Shown here: one piece after another, positions 2,264 to 62,345 of the stretch
Layout of the letters: each line of letters begins with the position of its first letter
Numbering within the stretch: the first letter of the stretch is position 1
Assembly (NCBI RefSeq): GCF_013185185.1
Contig: NZ_JAAZWE010000001.1
Location: 1,240,001-1,304,000 of the forward strand
Direction: 5' to 3'
DNA length: 64,000 nt
Source of the DNA: Saccharibacillus endophyticus
GTDB lineage: Bacteria; Bacillota; Bacilli; Paenibacillales; Paenibacillaceae
Translations under genes and position numbers: made by a program
Notes under the pieces: generated by a model
Told to the model about the DNA's origin: nothing
Seen by the model: the letters and a program-made list of their open reading frames with translations, nothing else
The model's database searches: none

Positions 2264-2274
2264 TTGTCGCTAAG

Positions 2275-2466
2275 GCGGGTAAAGAAGTTCCTATTCGCTG
2301 GGGGAAGCTTGGCGGCTGCGGGTGAAATTCGTTCAAGACGCTGTCTCACCTCGGGAATGAAGATCGGATGGCAGCATCCGATCTTCATTCCCAAGGTTCA
2401 AAGGCGTCTTTCACTGAATTTCCCCCTTCGCCTATCGCTTCGCTGAATAGGAACGGCTTTACCGGA
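2275..2466. repeat. Giant imperfect palindrome, family A copy 1
   Basis: The two halves pair over most of about 190 bp. From outside in, the paired blocks are GGTAAAG/CTTTACC, GTTCCTATTC/GAATAGGAAC, AAATTC/GAATTT, AGACGC/GCGTCT and a terminal stem GGGAATGAAGATCGGAT with its complement. Between them lie unpaired segments GTTCA against TTCACT and TGTCTCAC against GTTCAAAG. These unpaired segments recur in the copy at 62178-62345, while most stem sequences there are different. It sits directly behind the DUF2325 gene. It could be a structured RNA, a mobile palindromic repeat or a transcription end signal. Confidence 0.75.
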
Positions 2467-2519
2467 CGCGGCAAAATTGTGCCGCGTCGGTTAAAAGAGT
2501 AGGAAAAGAAAAAGAGAAA

Positions 2520-4289: not shown

Positions 4290-4520
4290 TTAGACGGATT
4301 CAAAATCCGACCAAAAAGCGCTTAGCATGAGAATGCCGACGCTTCGCATGCTGCGTCCGTACAGACCGTAGATCAGCTCATCGAGAATGAGAGCATCCGG
4401 TTGTCCCATCATTCCGGCGGCAAAAGCCAGTCGCTGCTTTTGCCCGCCCGAGAGTGCAGCCGGATGGCGATCGCGCACTTCCCAAAGTTCCAGCTCACGC
4501 AGAAAGCTTTCCGCGTTCAA
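4290..4520 (-). pseudogene. ABC transporter ATPase fragment (decayed)
   Basis: The 76-codon reading frame contains the ABC signature ALSGGQKQR, then a Walker B-like segment that reads LILDELIYGLYGRSM where a working protein would have DEPTxGLDGRSM. The conserved Pro and the D-loop Asp are lost. The Walker A half is missing: the frame opens at a TTG exactly where half a family A palindrome (4512-4545) begins. It is a remnant of an ECF or cobalt-type ATPase gene, probably broken when or after the palindrome inserted. Confidence 0.8.
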
Positions 4521-4545
4521 AGGCGTCTCTCGCTGAATTTCTCCC
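4512..4545. repeat. Half copy of family A giant palindrome
   Basis: GTTCAAAGGCGTCT, then CTCGCTGAATTTCTCCCT, matches the right arm of the copy at 2275-2466 (GTTCAAAGGCGTCTTTCACT and GAATTTCCCCCT). The left arm is absent and is replaced by the ABC ATPase remnant, so this copy marks a deletion or recombination junction. Confidence 0.7.
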
Positions 4546-5745
4546 TCAGCTTGGCTTCGGCCCAGTAATTTTTGGGTGCATCTTTTTTCCGTTTAGAGCC
4601 GCGACGATAAAAGCGATTAGGGCCAGGAGTGTGCAGCATGTGAAAACTGTCGGGTATGAGCTGATTTGGGCGATCCAGCCGAAAACGAGGCCGCCGAGTG
4701 CGAAGCCCAAGTCGTAGGACGACATGAACAGGCCCATTAAGGTATAGCGGGCTTGGTTCGGCAGAGCGAAAGATAAATAAGTAGTCAAGGTCGGGTACAG
4801 GAATGCGAGCGCCAGACCGTTGAAGACGGCGGACAGGTACACGAGGCTTCCAAGCATCTGCGGCACTGCAAGCATCTGTGTGCCGACGGCGGATGCTAGA
4901 AGGAGGCCCAGGATCAAGGCTGCGCTCCAGCGGCCGTCGGACGGGATTTTTTTGCGGAAAACGAAACGGCAGACCACTACGGTCGCGCCTTGCAGAGCCA
5001 GATATATGCCGACGTTTCCGCTGTTTGTAGAGATGAGGTACAGCGGTAAAAAGGTCGCGATCGCGCCGAATATACATGAGGTTAACAGCATGATGAAGGT
5101 GCTGACGCCGAGCGGGCGGCTGCGGCCGATTTCGCCGAACGAGTCTATCAATCCGCGCAGCGTGTAAGATTGCTTATGCGCGGACGCTTTGGGCAAAGGC
5201 AGCGAAAGTCCCGCAGCAATCGCCGCAAAAGCCAACAGCAGCATCGCTCCGCCGAAAGCAAAGCTTCCTCCGCGTTCCCATAATTCGACGGCAAGAAGCG
5301 GACCGACGAGCGAAGGCAGCATGGTCGACAGCGTGTAGAGCGACAATCCCTGGCCGCGGTCTTTGTCATCCAATCGCTCCATGATTCCGGCCTGCATCGT
5401 CATGGAAAAGAATGCCGTCGCCGCGCCTTGCAGCGCTCGGAGCCAGATGTAGCCTTCGATGCCGGACACGGCATATAGCAGCAGCGTGATCGCATGAACG
5501 ACAAGCAAACCGCGCATGACCGCAAGCGGTCCGAATCGACCGATCCATTGGCCGGCGAGCGGACGCAGCAGCATGCAAGTCAGCATATAAGCGCCCATCA
5601 TCAAGCCGATGCCGCCTTGTCCGAGACCGGCATCGGCACTTCGCAAAGGCAGAGCTACGGTCAATACGGAATTAGCGAAAAAGAATAAAAAGGCAAGCGT
5701 ATAGAGACGTATAAATCCCGCGGATGCGGGGCTGGCGCGATTCAA
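4546..5745 (-). CDS. MFS transporter
   Basis: A 399-residue, very hydrophobic protein with about 12 membrane segments and the usual central loop after TM6 (around 190-205). The A-like loop GQWIGRFGPLAVMRG lies after TM2. Family members of this size export drugs or metabolites by proton antiport; the substrate cannot be told from sequence. Translation most likely starts at TTG (5745), because GGAGG lies 7-8 nt before it and no in-frame ATG is near. The 3' end overlaps the region of the palindrome half copy, so the last residues may be abnormal. It is followed upstream by the divergently placed terminator-free gap to the amidohydrolase gene. Confidence 0.85.
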   Translation of the reverse strand: MNRASPASAGFIRLYTLAFLFFFANSVLTVALPLRSADAGLGQGGIGLMMGAYMLTCMLLRPLAGQWIGRFGPLAVMRGLLVVHAITLLLYAVSGIEGYIWLRALQGAATAFFSMTMQAGIMERLDDKDRGQGLSLYTLSTMLPSLVGPLLAVELWERGGSFAFGGAMLLLAFAAIAAGLSLPLPKASAHKQSYTLRGLIDSFGEIGRSRPLGVSTFIMLLTSCIFGAIATFLPLYLISTNSGNVGIYLALQGATVVVCRFVFRKKIPSDGRWSAALILGLLLASAVGTQMLAVPQMLGSLVYLSAVFNGLALAFLYPTLTTYLSFALPNQARYTLMGLFMSSYDLGFALGGLVFGWIAQISSYPTVFTCCTLLALIAFIVAALNGKKMHPKITGPKPS

Positions 5746-27813: not shown

Positions 27814-27888
27814 CGTGCGACCTCCTTCTGGCTTGTTGATGTTCATACTGTACAACCAAAACGAAAAATCGACAAGGGTCGGGGATTA

Positions 27889-28048
27889 GGGCGTGTCTTC
27901 AAACCTCAATGGCAGCAGATTTGGTCGAATTTTCGTTCTCAGCAAGGAACTTTTTCGCAGTCGTGCCGGGGCACGTCAAGAGAAAGTGACGCGGCGGAGG
28001 ACGAAAAGGCGGCAAAAGATGCACATTGGCAGGTTTGAAGACACGCCC
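27889..28048. mobile_element. 160-bp MITE with 18-bp perfect terminal inverted repeats and TA duplication
   Basis: The ends GGGCGTGTCTTCAAACCT and AGGTTTGAAGACACGCCC are exact complements and are flanked by TA on both sides (27887-27888, 28049-28050). No transposase is encoded. TA target duplication suggests mobilisation by an IS630/Tc1 or IS427-type transposase elsewhere. It lies in the divergent control region of the YesM/YesN and sugar transporter genes. A partial relative is at 57357-57405. Confidence 0.85.
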
Positions 28049-28335
28049 TAGGCTGCCCCAGATGAAAACCGGTTAATTCTTCTTGTTTTTTCGAGCTTTT
28101 TTTCGAAGGTTGGACTTTTTTTCGTTTAGAGGCTGAGGATGGGGTAGAAATGGTGGAGCGGAGGACTGGAAAGGCTTGCTTCGAGGATGAGAAGCAAGTA
28201 AGGTCGTGCTGCGAACGAGAGTTTCGGCGTGAAAGGCGAAGGCTTCGCGGCTTCTTTTTCCTTTCACGCTACCTCATTGTTTGCTGGAGGGCGCTCGTAT
28301 TTATGAGCGTTTTTTTAAAACCTTTAAGACCTTTT

Positions 28336-57331: not shown

Positions 57332-57356
57332 AGAAGAAAAAATTTTCGTTCTAAGC

Positions 57357-57405
57357 TAGGGCATGTACGCAAACTCAACGACGTGCATCTTTTGCTGCCT
57401 TTTCG
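57357..57405. mobile_element. Partial MITE copy forming the 3' end of a gene
   Basis: TAGGGCATGT, CAAAC and GTGCATCTTTTGCTGCCTTT match the right end of the MITE at 27889-28048 (as reverse complement), including the TA flank. The other end is not found. It encodes the last residues of the gene at 57375. Confidence 0.75.
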
Positions 57406-57987
57406 CCCAGCCATAATTCCAGATCCCCGTCATAACTGAAATTTACCGAATCCGAAGGCAGCATCTCCGCCAACTCATCGCGAGTCGTCGCCTCACAAGA
57501 TATTTCGGCTTGTCCTTGTTCGTCCGAGGCGGAATCGGTCAACCAATACCCGCCGATTTCCGTATTGTACGTCCACTCATTCCCCCGCTCGTCCCGATAA
57601 AGGTCCGCTGCTCCTCGGCTTTTGGTCGGAATCGAGAGAAAATCTTGCTCCGCCTGTGCTTCATAATCGGGATTGTTCCGCTTCCGAATCAGGCGTCTGA
57701 ATCCGAACCTCTCCGGCTCTGCCGCCAGCACCCGACCGTCGTCCGCCGATAACACGATTTTTTCTCCTTCCATGAATACAGCTTTGACGGTAAAAGATAA
57801 CGGGATGTCGATCAGACTGTCCATCCCGCCTCCGCTTTCGCGTTGCTCGGACAAAATGCCTTGTTGACGGACGCCGGGCAAACAAAACATTCCTGCCGCG
57901 AAGCTCTTCCAACGCGCTTTCCTCTCCCGACGCCGCATTTCGCATCAGTTCGAGATCTGCCGGATTTTTTTCAAGATCGATTGCCAT
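57375..57987 (-). pseudogene. Small protein gene with internal frameshift; 3' end from a MITE
   Basis: An ATG at 57987 with GGGAGATG upstream starts MAIDLEKNPADLELMRNAAS, but that frame leads into a low-quality Arg-rich stretch. The frame one step away carries the continuation from about 57890 (QQGILSEQRESGG) to 57375: MDSLIDIPLSFTVKAVF, EWTYNTEIGGYWLTD. Either one gene has suffered an indel between about 57840 and 57900, or the protein starts internally (ATG at 57824 after GGAGG). The C-terminus LGEKAAKDARR is encoded by MITE sequence. The family is unknown. Confidence 0.55.
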
Positions 57988-61651: not shown

Positions 61652-61705
61652 ACGGAAAAACGTCCCTTTTGCGGGCGTCAAATTGCTCTCGAAAGTTACG
61701 TTGGC

Positions 61706-61897
61706 GCGAGAATCGAGAAGACTCCGAGAGAAATTCGTTAGCGTATGCTTACGATGTGCCTTTCTTCGAAAGCCTTCAGGTCGCGTGTTGAAATCGGGAA
61801 AAAGGATTAAATTTTTATTTGTATTTTCCCGATTTCAAAGGCGAACGCTAACGCTCCTGCACTGAATTTCTCTCTCCGTCTTCTCGCTTCCAGCTAC
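61706..61897. repeat. Giant imperfect palindrome, family A copy 3
   Basis: Outer arms CGAGAAGAC and GTCTTCTCG, then GAGAGAAATTC with GAATTTCTCTC, and an inner stem TTGAAATCGGGAAAA with TTTTCCCGATTTCAA. The shared single-stranded pieces are AAATTCGTT on the left and TTTCAAAGGCG...CACTGAATTT on the right. The paired sequences differ from the other copies. Confidence 0.65.
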
Positions 61898-61918
61898 GTT
61901 GGACTTTCTCGACACATT

Positions 61919-61941
61919 GACGCCCTTCGGGGCGTTTTTTG
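61919..61941 (+). terminator. Terminator-like hairpin
   Basis: GACGCCC and GGGGCG around TTC, with a TTTTTTG tail. Confidence 0.6.
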
Positions 61942-62177: not shown

Positions 62178-62345
62178 CCAATCGAGAAATCCGATTCCGG
62201 CTCAATCCCAGCGGAGGGGGAAATTCAGTGAAAGACGCCTTTGAACTTATAAAGCCGTAGGCTTTATAAGTGAGACAGCGTCTTGAACGAATTTACCCCG
62301 CAGCGCCTCGATTGAGCCACCCCCGTCGAATTTTCTCGATTTCCC
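62178..62345. repeat. Giant imperfect palindrome, family A copy 2
   Basis: In the orientation opposite to copy 1. Outer arms AATCGAGAAA with TTTCTCGATT, then GGCTCAATC with GATTGAGCC, AAATTC/GAATTT, AGACGC/GCGTCT and a terminal stem CTTATAAAG/CTTTATAAG. Internal unpaired pieces TGTCTCAC, GTTCA and GTTCAAAG are identical to those of copy 1, while outer and terminal stems are different. Confidence 0.75.

Follow-up and report, generated by a model that had tools for sequence, protein, structure and literature searches.

Palindromic repeats of Saccharibacillus endophyticus are very probably decayed MITEs of an IS1182-type transposase that duplicates whole terminator hairpins

DDE transposases usually give a short target duplication of fixed length. 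For the IS1182 family, catalogues of insertion sequences (IS) give direct repeats of 0-60 bp, so that part of what we describe here may already be known to specialists. The closest described system is IS1272, a member of the IS1182 family. IS1272 targets hairpins, and the hairpin is lost without any target duplication in the parts of the two reports drawn on here (PMC5678879, PMC4923244). In the corresponding part of the IS1272 model, duplication of the whole stem-loop figures solely as one alternative route (Fig 13, pathway b; PMC5678879).

We analysed a 64,000-nucleotide stretch of the Saccharibacillus endophyticus genome (the window). An original prediction, made from the letters alone, had placed a family of palindromes at 2275-2466, 61706-61897 and 62178-62345, with a half copy at 4512-4545, and all four are present at these places (Table 1). 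Folding of the three full copies is much stronger than that of shuffled DNA, with z values of -9.70, -9.04 and -7.53 for copies 1, 2 and 3, respectively. The prediction also held that the copies share a common set of unpaired segments, which stands in part. GTTCAAAGGCG and GAATTT are shared by copies 1 and 3 and the half copy. TGTCTCAC is limited to copies 1 and 3, and copy 2 has a different core (GTCGCGTGTT...AAAGGCGAACGCTAACGCTCCTG), so "shared by all" was too strong. Common to copies 1, 2 and 3 are AAATTCGTT, either TTCAAAGGCG or GTTCAAAGGCG, and CACTGAATTT. Core 1, found in copies 1 and 3, is composed of GTTCAAGACGC, TGTCTCAC, a stem, GTTCAAAG and GCGTCTTTCACT, while core 2, found in copy 2, is composed of GGTCGCGTGTT, a stem and AAAGGCGAACGCTAACGCTCCTGCACT, plus an additional 5′ hairpin module. 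The blocks of the half copy lie at 4515-4540, with CGCT where the others have CACT. In the window, Rfam returned nothing at the gathering threshold, and no tRNA or tmRNA was found.

Table 1. Copies of the palindromic family and adjoining hairpins in the S. endophyticus window.
Feature	Position	Strand	Description
Copy 1	2274..2472	+	Decayed MITE, core 1, type-B arms; strongly decayed, ends are estimates taken from the 204-bp MITE
Copy 1 blocks			AAATTC 2325-2330; TGTCTCAC 2342-2349; GTTCAAAGGCG 2396-2406; GAATTT 2416-2421
Half copy	4513..4562	+	Right half of a core-1 element; repeat D10
Hairpin left of copy 2	61660..61678	.	Terminator-type ACGTCCCTTTTGCGGGCGT; counterpart of the 61920-61935 hairpin
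Copy 2	61684..61914	+	MITE, core 2, 5′ hairpin module, type-A arms
Copy 2 ends			Right end GACTTTCTCGACA 61902-61914; left end decayed
Hairpin right of copy 2	61920..61935	.	Terminator-type ACGCCCTTCGGGGCGT, then T-run
Copy 3	62178..62341	-	Decayed MITE, core 1; terminal stem unlike that of the S. sacchari orthologue

A second repeat was noticed in the window at 27887-28050. It is 164 bp long, and its 20-bp inverted ends are perfect (TAGGGCGTGTCTTCAAACCT). Elsewhere in the window lies a related, diverged inverted copy (27999-28051 / 57356-57408), and a similar stretch adjoins a palindrome copy in L027, near 890. This 164-bp element probably represents a second MITE family.

Searching the S. 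endophyticus genome with the pattern AAAGGCGN{3,33}CNCTGAATTT, we obtained 166 matches, and the reversed control gave 0. A stricter pattern (CACTGAATTT) gave 155 matches in this genome and 8 to 151 in each of nine other genomes of the genus, all of these counts being dependent on the pattern and missing the copies without those blocks. The family was thus found in 10 of 16 Saccharibacillus genomes, and the stricter pattern was absent from the other 6. A lack of further copies in the genus would have refuted the prediction; the genus holds many. Outside the genus, 20 of 378 genomes of the family gave 1-2 matches, which we took as chance, judging by the matched strings; one genome also gave 1 reversed-control match. 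In viral contigs, 105 stretches matched the pattern and were likewise assumed to be chance because the pattern is short.

We also checked the gene context of 89 S. endophyticus copies. Twenty-eight lie between convergent genes, 32 between co-directional genes and 5 between divergent genes, and the other 24, under a crude ORF rule, run into an ORF of 100 aa or more. Between co-directional genes, the element is on the same strand in 11 of the 32 cases and on the opposite strand in 21. This placement fits terminator targeting and gives no hint of a stranded RNA.

In relatives, TGTCGAGAAAGTC...GACTTTCTCGACA delimits the copies, and both ends were matched within 3 mismatches in 33 of the 122 unique copies gathered. 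The eight copies inspected in G378 hardly differ from one another; they run TCAGGCTGTCGAGAAAGTC...GACTTTCTCGACACGTTGA and measure 204 bp, except for a single copy of 207 bp. The 204-bp copies have imperfect 19-bp end repeats and no room for a transposase gene, as in a MITE. G378 also contains one IS-sized end pair of 1570 bp, which carries an IS1182-family transposase in two frames, with matches to Pfam DUF772 and DDE_Tnp_1_6 and to NF033551. TCAGGCTGTCGAGAAA is exact at one end of the MITE and of this 1.57-kb IS. The end consensus common to the intact MITEs (mostly 204 bp) and the IS is TCA(GG/GA/AC)(C/G)TGTCGAGAAA, and ~16 end bases are all that the two were seen to have in common. The same two-frame split, with an A-rich run at the overlap, was seen in G385 and in two G386 copies, and this recurrence suggests a programmed frameshift.

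At E 0.001, transposase matches were obtained in 7 of the 16 genus genomes, 4 of these over the cut-off. Seven of the 10 MITE-bearing genomes gave a match, compared to none of the 6 without MITEs, and the three MITE-bearing genomes lacking one were G376, G387 and G388. In the S. endophyticus genome, the search gave a 45-position fragment only; the family therefore appears extinct there. On this sequence evidence, the palindromes are best read as MITEs of an IS1182-family IS, which apparently mobilised them in trans.

Each of the eight inspected G378 copies has a terminator hairpin on both sides, and the hairpin is different at each locus. Scanning the gathered loci for pairs of end repeats, we obtained 50 pairs. 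Of these, 30 carry a direct duplication of 14 bp or longer, the lengths ranging from 15 to 29 bp. By a rule that asks for six or more Watson-Crick pairs in the arm, with at most 2 nt trimmed per end, all 30 duplications are hairpins, compared to 0.245% of length-matched random windows handled in the same way. In 29 of the 30, an A-run precedes the hairpin or a T-run follows it, as in rho-independent terminators. The 30 hairpins differ in sequence, and there is no fixed target sequence. The 20 pairs in which an ungapped duplication of at least 14 bp is missing include some chance pairs and some decayed ones. Performing a gapped comparison, we find that in 37 of the 50 pairs the flanks resemble each other more closely than do 99.5% of between-locus pairs; the 13 that fell short include decayed hairpins (L172, L060) and chance pairs (125, 150 and 1517 bp).

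Three unoccupied orthologous sites each contain a single hairpin. One such site is present in S. sacchari, for the S. endophyticus copy near C10:934,400. Others are present in G387 and S. endophyticus (versus L385) and in G376 and S. endophyticus (versus L380), these being read by eye, with orthology assigned via the upstream gene and with diverged hairpin sequences. As the MITE and the IS both lie between two whole hairpins and the empty sites have one, the target duplication is the hairpin itself.

A similar pattern was seen for the full IS copies in the genus, four of five of which have a whole-hairpin duplication (24, 29, 19 and 18 bp). The 24-bp duplication belongs to L446, a 1550-bp relative of the IS with somewhat different ends. 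A related IS in G102 (same family, other genus) showed hairpin duplication in 6 of 6 copies (20-32 bp; five called by the rule and the sixth by eye), and in G445 (other family) it was seen in 1 of 2 copies. The exceptions are the IS1182 copies L448 (G378) and L520 (G445), in each of which the hairpin at one end differs from that at the other; recombination between copies or an alternative insertion outcome could have given such mismatched hairpins.

We then have the wider IS1182 family. Among 36 IS1182 loci (29 from the order search and 7 from the genus), 9 show a direct repeat of 8 bp or longer and 7 are hairpin-like by rule; four of these 7 are genus copies, and L494 is doubtful. Twenty additional IS1182 stretches, among which L504 and L519 duplicate L482 and L480, gave a direct repeat in 9 and a hairpin-like one in 6. 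The common end type GGGGCTGTCCCAAAAG showed no duplication by rule in the 36-locus set, and IS1182 elements with other ends showed no hairpin duplication by rule at the loci of both sets. As duplication goes only with certain IS1182 ends, hairpin duplication is the property of a subgroup. At L512, L516 and L518 (IS1182, ends TCAGACTGTTGA), the flanks appear by eye to be two halves of a palindrome, inverted and not direct, as though the IS had been placed within a hairpin loop.

Within the window, the two hairpins that flank copy 2 look like a diverged pair, as an old hairpin duplication predicts. For copies 1 and 3, the ends are decayed and a hairpin pair is not clear; their membership of the family therefore rests on the common arms and core. 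A perfect hairpin (GACGCGGCAAAATTGTGCCGCGTC, 2465-2488) adjoins the right end of copy 1, and its left partner was not seen. This hairpin may be the remaining half of an old duplication.

The original prediction had noted that the stems differ between copies yet remain complementary, and this is borne out across the family, where pairing exceeds shuffles and the covariation is statistically real. In 91 core-1 copies, the middle stem showed 83.5% Watson-Crick pairs versus 75.0% with shuffled partners (maximum 77.9% in 1000 shuffles), and the inner stem showed 85.8% versus 68.1% (maximum 71.5%). The outer arms scored 15.8 with their own partner versus 12.0 with permuted partners in class A (32 S. 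endophyticus copies; maximum 13.8) and 9.5 versus 5.4 in class B (57 S. endophyticus copies; maximum 6.6), although partner shuffles leave the kinship among copies in place. A comparison of orthologues removes this kinship effect.

Such a comparison was made between S. endophyticus and S. sacchari, whose syntenic segments are mostly 88-95% identical. Fourteen of the 33 S. sacchari element matches could be paired with S. endophyticus loci. Three of the 14 have a different core class in the same arms, one differs by a hairpin module, four are reduced or missing in S. endophyticus, and six are of the same class. In the six same-class pairs, 14 Watson-Crick pairs no longer pair and another 8 are now G-U, while 6 G-U pairs became Watson-Crick. 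Nine times, both partners changed and pairing was kept, with a single locus accounting for 7 of these cases, and double compensatory changes are present at two orthologous loci in total. Changes affected ~6.5% of paired bases and 7.2% of unpaired bases (percentages from counts). In the stems of the core-1 copies of the family, G-U cells, 37 in number, were not above A-C cells (59, of which 22 are at one inner position). Two readings of single loci were dropped. The core of A207280 is not simply inverted in place; the whole element is in the opposite orientation and has a different core, and an independent insertion is equally possible as the explanation. The absence at B125487 was at first taken as an insertion in S. 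sacchari, and a deletion in S. endophyticus fits it equally.

The S. sacchari orthologue of window copy 1 has lost its core, apparently between TTCG repeats. That of copy 3 has a wholly different terminal stem and consists of seven tandem core-1 copies with a period of 124 bp (G386:C1 about 4581300-4582150). All four combinations of arm and core occur (13, 9, 37 and 9 of 89 copies, with 21 unclassified). When intact copies were compared between species, 33 of the 36 comparisons showed greater similarity in the core than in the outer 60 bases (identity 85-97% overall for cores versus 70-93% for the outer 60 bases). Such good conservation of intact cores makes a constraint on the core possible in active lineages. 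In L110, L135 and L181 (S. qingshengii), an extra perfect hairpin (GGTGCAAGTTCATATCC...GGATGAACTTGCACC) is located between the inner stem and AAAGGCG.

From the changing stems, the prediction had argued for selection on a folded nucleic acid instead of duplication, and this argument is not supported. Orthologous copies lose pairs freely, with paired and unpaired bases changing at like rates; G-U is no commoner than A-C; and orthologues have had their cores exchanged. The pattern of purifying or compensatory change in orthologous stems and the tolerance of G-U over A-C that mark a structured RNA were not found. The best account is that stems are exchanged as units between copies, with template switching in the palindromes as a likely helper, and that the elements are dispensable.

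What else could produce such repeats? The main idea of the prediction was a structured non-coding RNA, or an element of mRNA 3′ ends, whose fold is kept by selection. The strong folds, the pairing in excess of shuffles, the nine pairing-keeping double changes in orthologues and the conserved cores of intact copies across species would all agree with it. Nevertheless, we judge it very improbable: orthologues break pairs freely at equal rates of change, whole copies are reduced or missing between sister species, G-U stays no higher than A-C, and the strand relative to the genes is inconsistent (11 same and 21 opposite, n = 32). Moreover, Rfam has nothing for it at the gathering threshold, and fresh copies come with transposon ends and target duplications. 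The covariation might instead reflect selection favouring a hairpin or cruciform of the DNA that transposition requires, and not cassette exchange. We consider this unlikely but worth keeping in mind, as pairing is strand-symmetrical (both G-U and A-C occur) and intact cores exceed the outer ends in similarity in 33 of the 36 species comparisons; against it, orthologues change by replacement of a whole core or a whole stem, and pairs decay in old copies. Such selection could also act jointly with cassette exchange.

The presence of a hairpin on both sides of nearly all intact copies raised another question, whether the flanking hairpins are the element's own terminators and not a duplicated target. 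This is contradicted by the unoccupied orthologous sites with one hairpin. In addition, the hairpins differ at each locus while the 204-bp interior is nearly constant, and the IS shows the same pattern with other hairpins; we give this explanation almost no credence. Being palindromic, mostly intergenic and present in many copies, the elements also resemble a chromosome-organising site or repeats of the REP/BIME type, which a RAYT (Y1) transposase mobilises. REP/BIME repeats consist of a 20-40 bp palindrome and are associated with a RAYT gene. GTAG and CGTC ends are super-family tags of such repeats (PMC3733652). The ends of our elements are those of an IS1182 IS and hairpin duplications lie beside both, 6 of 16 genus genomes have no match, and the copies differ in sister species. 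An origin as a REP/BIME or an organising site is thus scarcely believable.

We are therefore largely confident that the palindromes are decayed MITEs, moved by an IS1182-type transposase that inserts at terminators and duplicates the whole hairpin, and that their stems are swapped as cassettes. Of the three options offered by the prediction, the palindromic mobile repeat was the correct one. In the proposed mechanism, the transposase would recognise its target as a structure, an extruded hairpin or cruciform. On either strand, joining of the element's 3′ ends would take place at the hairpin's 5′ foot, and gap filling would then copy the entire hairpin, so that the duplication length equals the hairpin length. 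As a terminator would be retained on either side, insertion would be little harmful, which would help explain the copy number. In the genome of the window the copies are old, and of the transposase gene a fragment is left. Long palindromes with many dispersed relatives would swap cores, modules and terminal hairpins as units, presumably via gene conversion over the constant blocks, and one arm may occasionally be copied from the other by template switching. Cassette exchange and arm copying together would mimic covariation.

We lean, with some reserve, towards a broader statement: a DDE transposase whose duplication is set by structure copies any terminator hairpin exactly, and the MITE is a terminator-duplicating commensal of >150 copies whose palindrome evolves by stem-cassette swaps. 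If this is true, a hairpin of whatever sequence or length would be duplicated, and both the IS and the MITE would keep the target terminator on both sides. It becomes testable whether terminator hairpins extrude in living cells and serve a transposase as its target, and whether duplication or replacement depends on which hairpin foot is joined. The results also mean that when copies of a palindromic repeat swap cassettes with one another, the outcome can resemble the covariation of a structured RNA.

How does this family compare with the known systems? IS1272 and TnSha1 of staphylococci likewise have an IS1182-family transposase and hairpin targets without sequence consensus, several of which are terminators; however, as far as the cited portions go, IS1272 replaces or partly deletes the hairpin without duplication, whereas the Saccharibacillus element has the whole hairpin twice (PMC5678879, PMC4923244). 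A hairpin target without fixed sequence is thus seen in Saccharibacillus, while hairpin deletion is not. MITEPye1 of Paracoccus yeei is alike in its IS1182-like ends, long-hairpin fold and intergenic location, but it has 4-bp direct repeats and 1-3 copies per chromosome, and the relevant passages of its description do not mention hairpin duplication (PMC11578231). The ISMac2-related MITEs (IS1182) of Methanosarcina acetivorans are also non-autonomous and short (160-169 bp); they differ in that the direct repeats are at most a few bp, and terminators are not mentioned in the passages cited (PMC3852290). BOX elements of Streptococcus pneumoniae are likewise folded, intergenic and MITE-like; they are built from modules, of which internal ones are optional, and an IS has been proposed as their partner. 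They differ in their boxA-boxB(n)-boxC layout, and terminator duplication is not mentioned in the cited part of that work (PMC3049150). A literature search, with most subscription papers outside its scope, found no whole-hairpin duplication by an IS1182 element and no description of a Saccharibacillus repeat. Hairpin targeting (IS1272) and MITEs with IS1182-like ends were thus known, and the duplication of a whole hairpin as the target appears to be new, as judged from this search. In the Saccharibacillus MITE and IS and in the IS of the other genus, the duplication is 15 to 32 bp long and coincides with the terminator hairpin. Such a variable, hairpin-matched duplication is the expected trace of a structure-reading transposase, along the pathway that is hypothetical in the cited part of the IS1272 model (PMC5678879).
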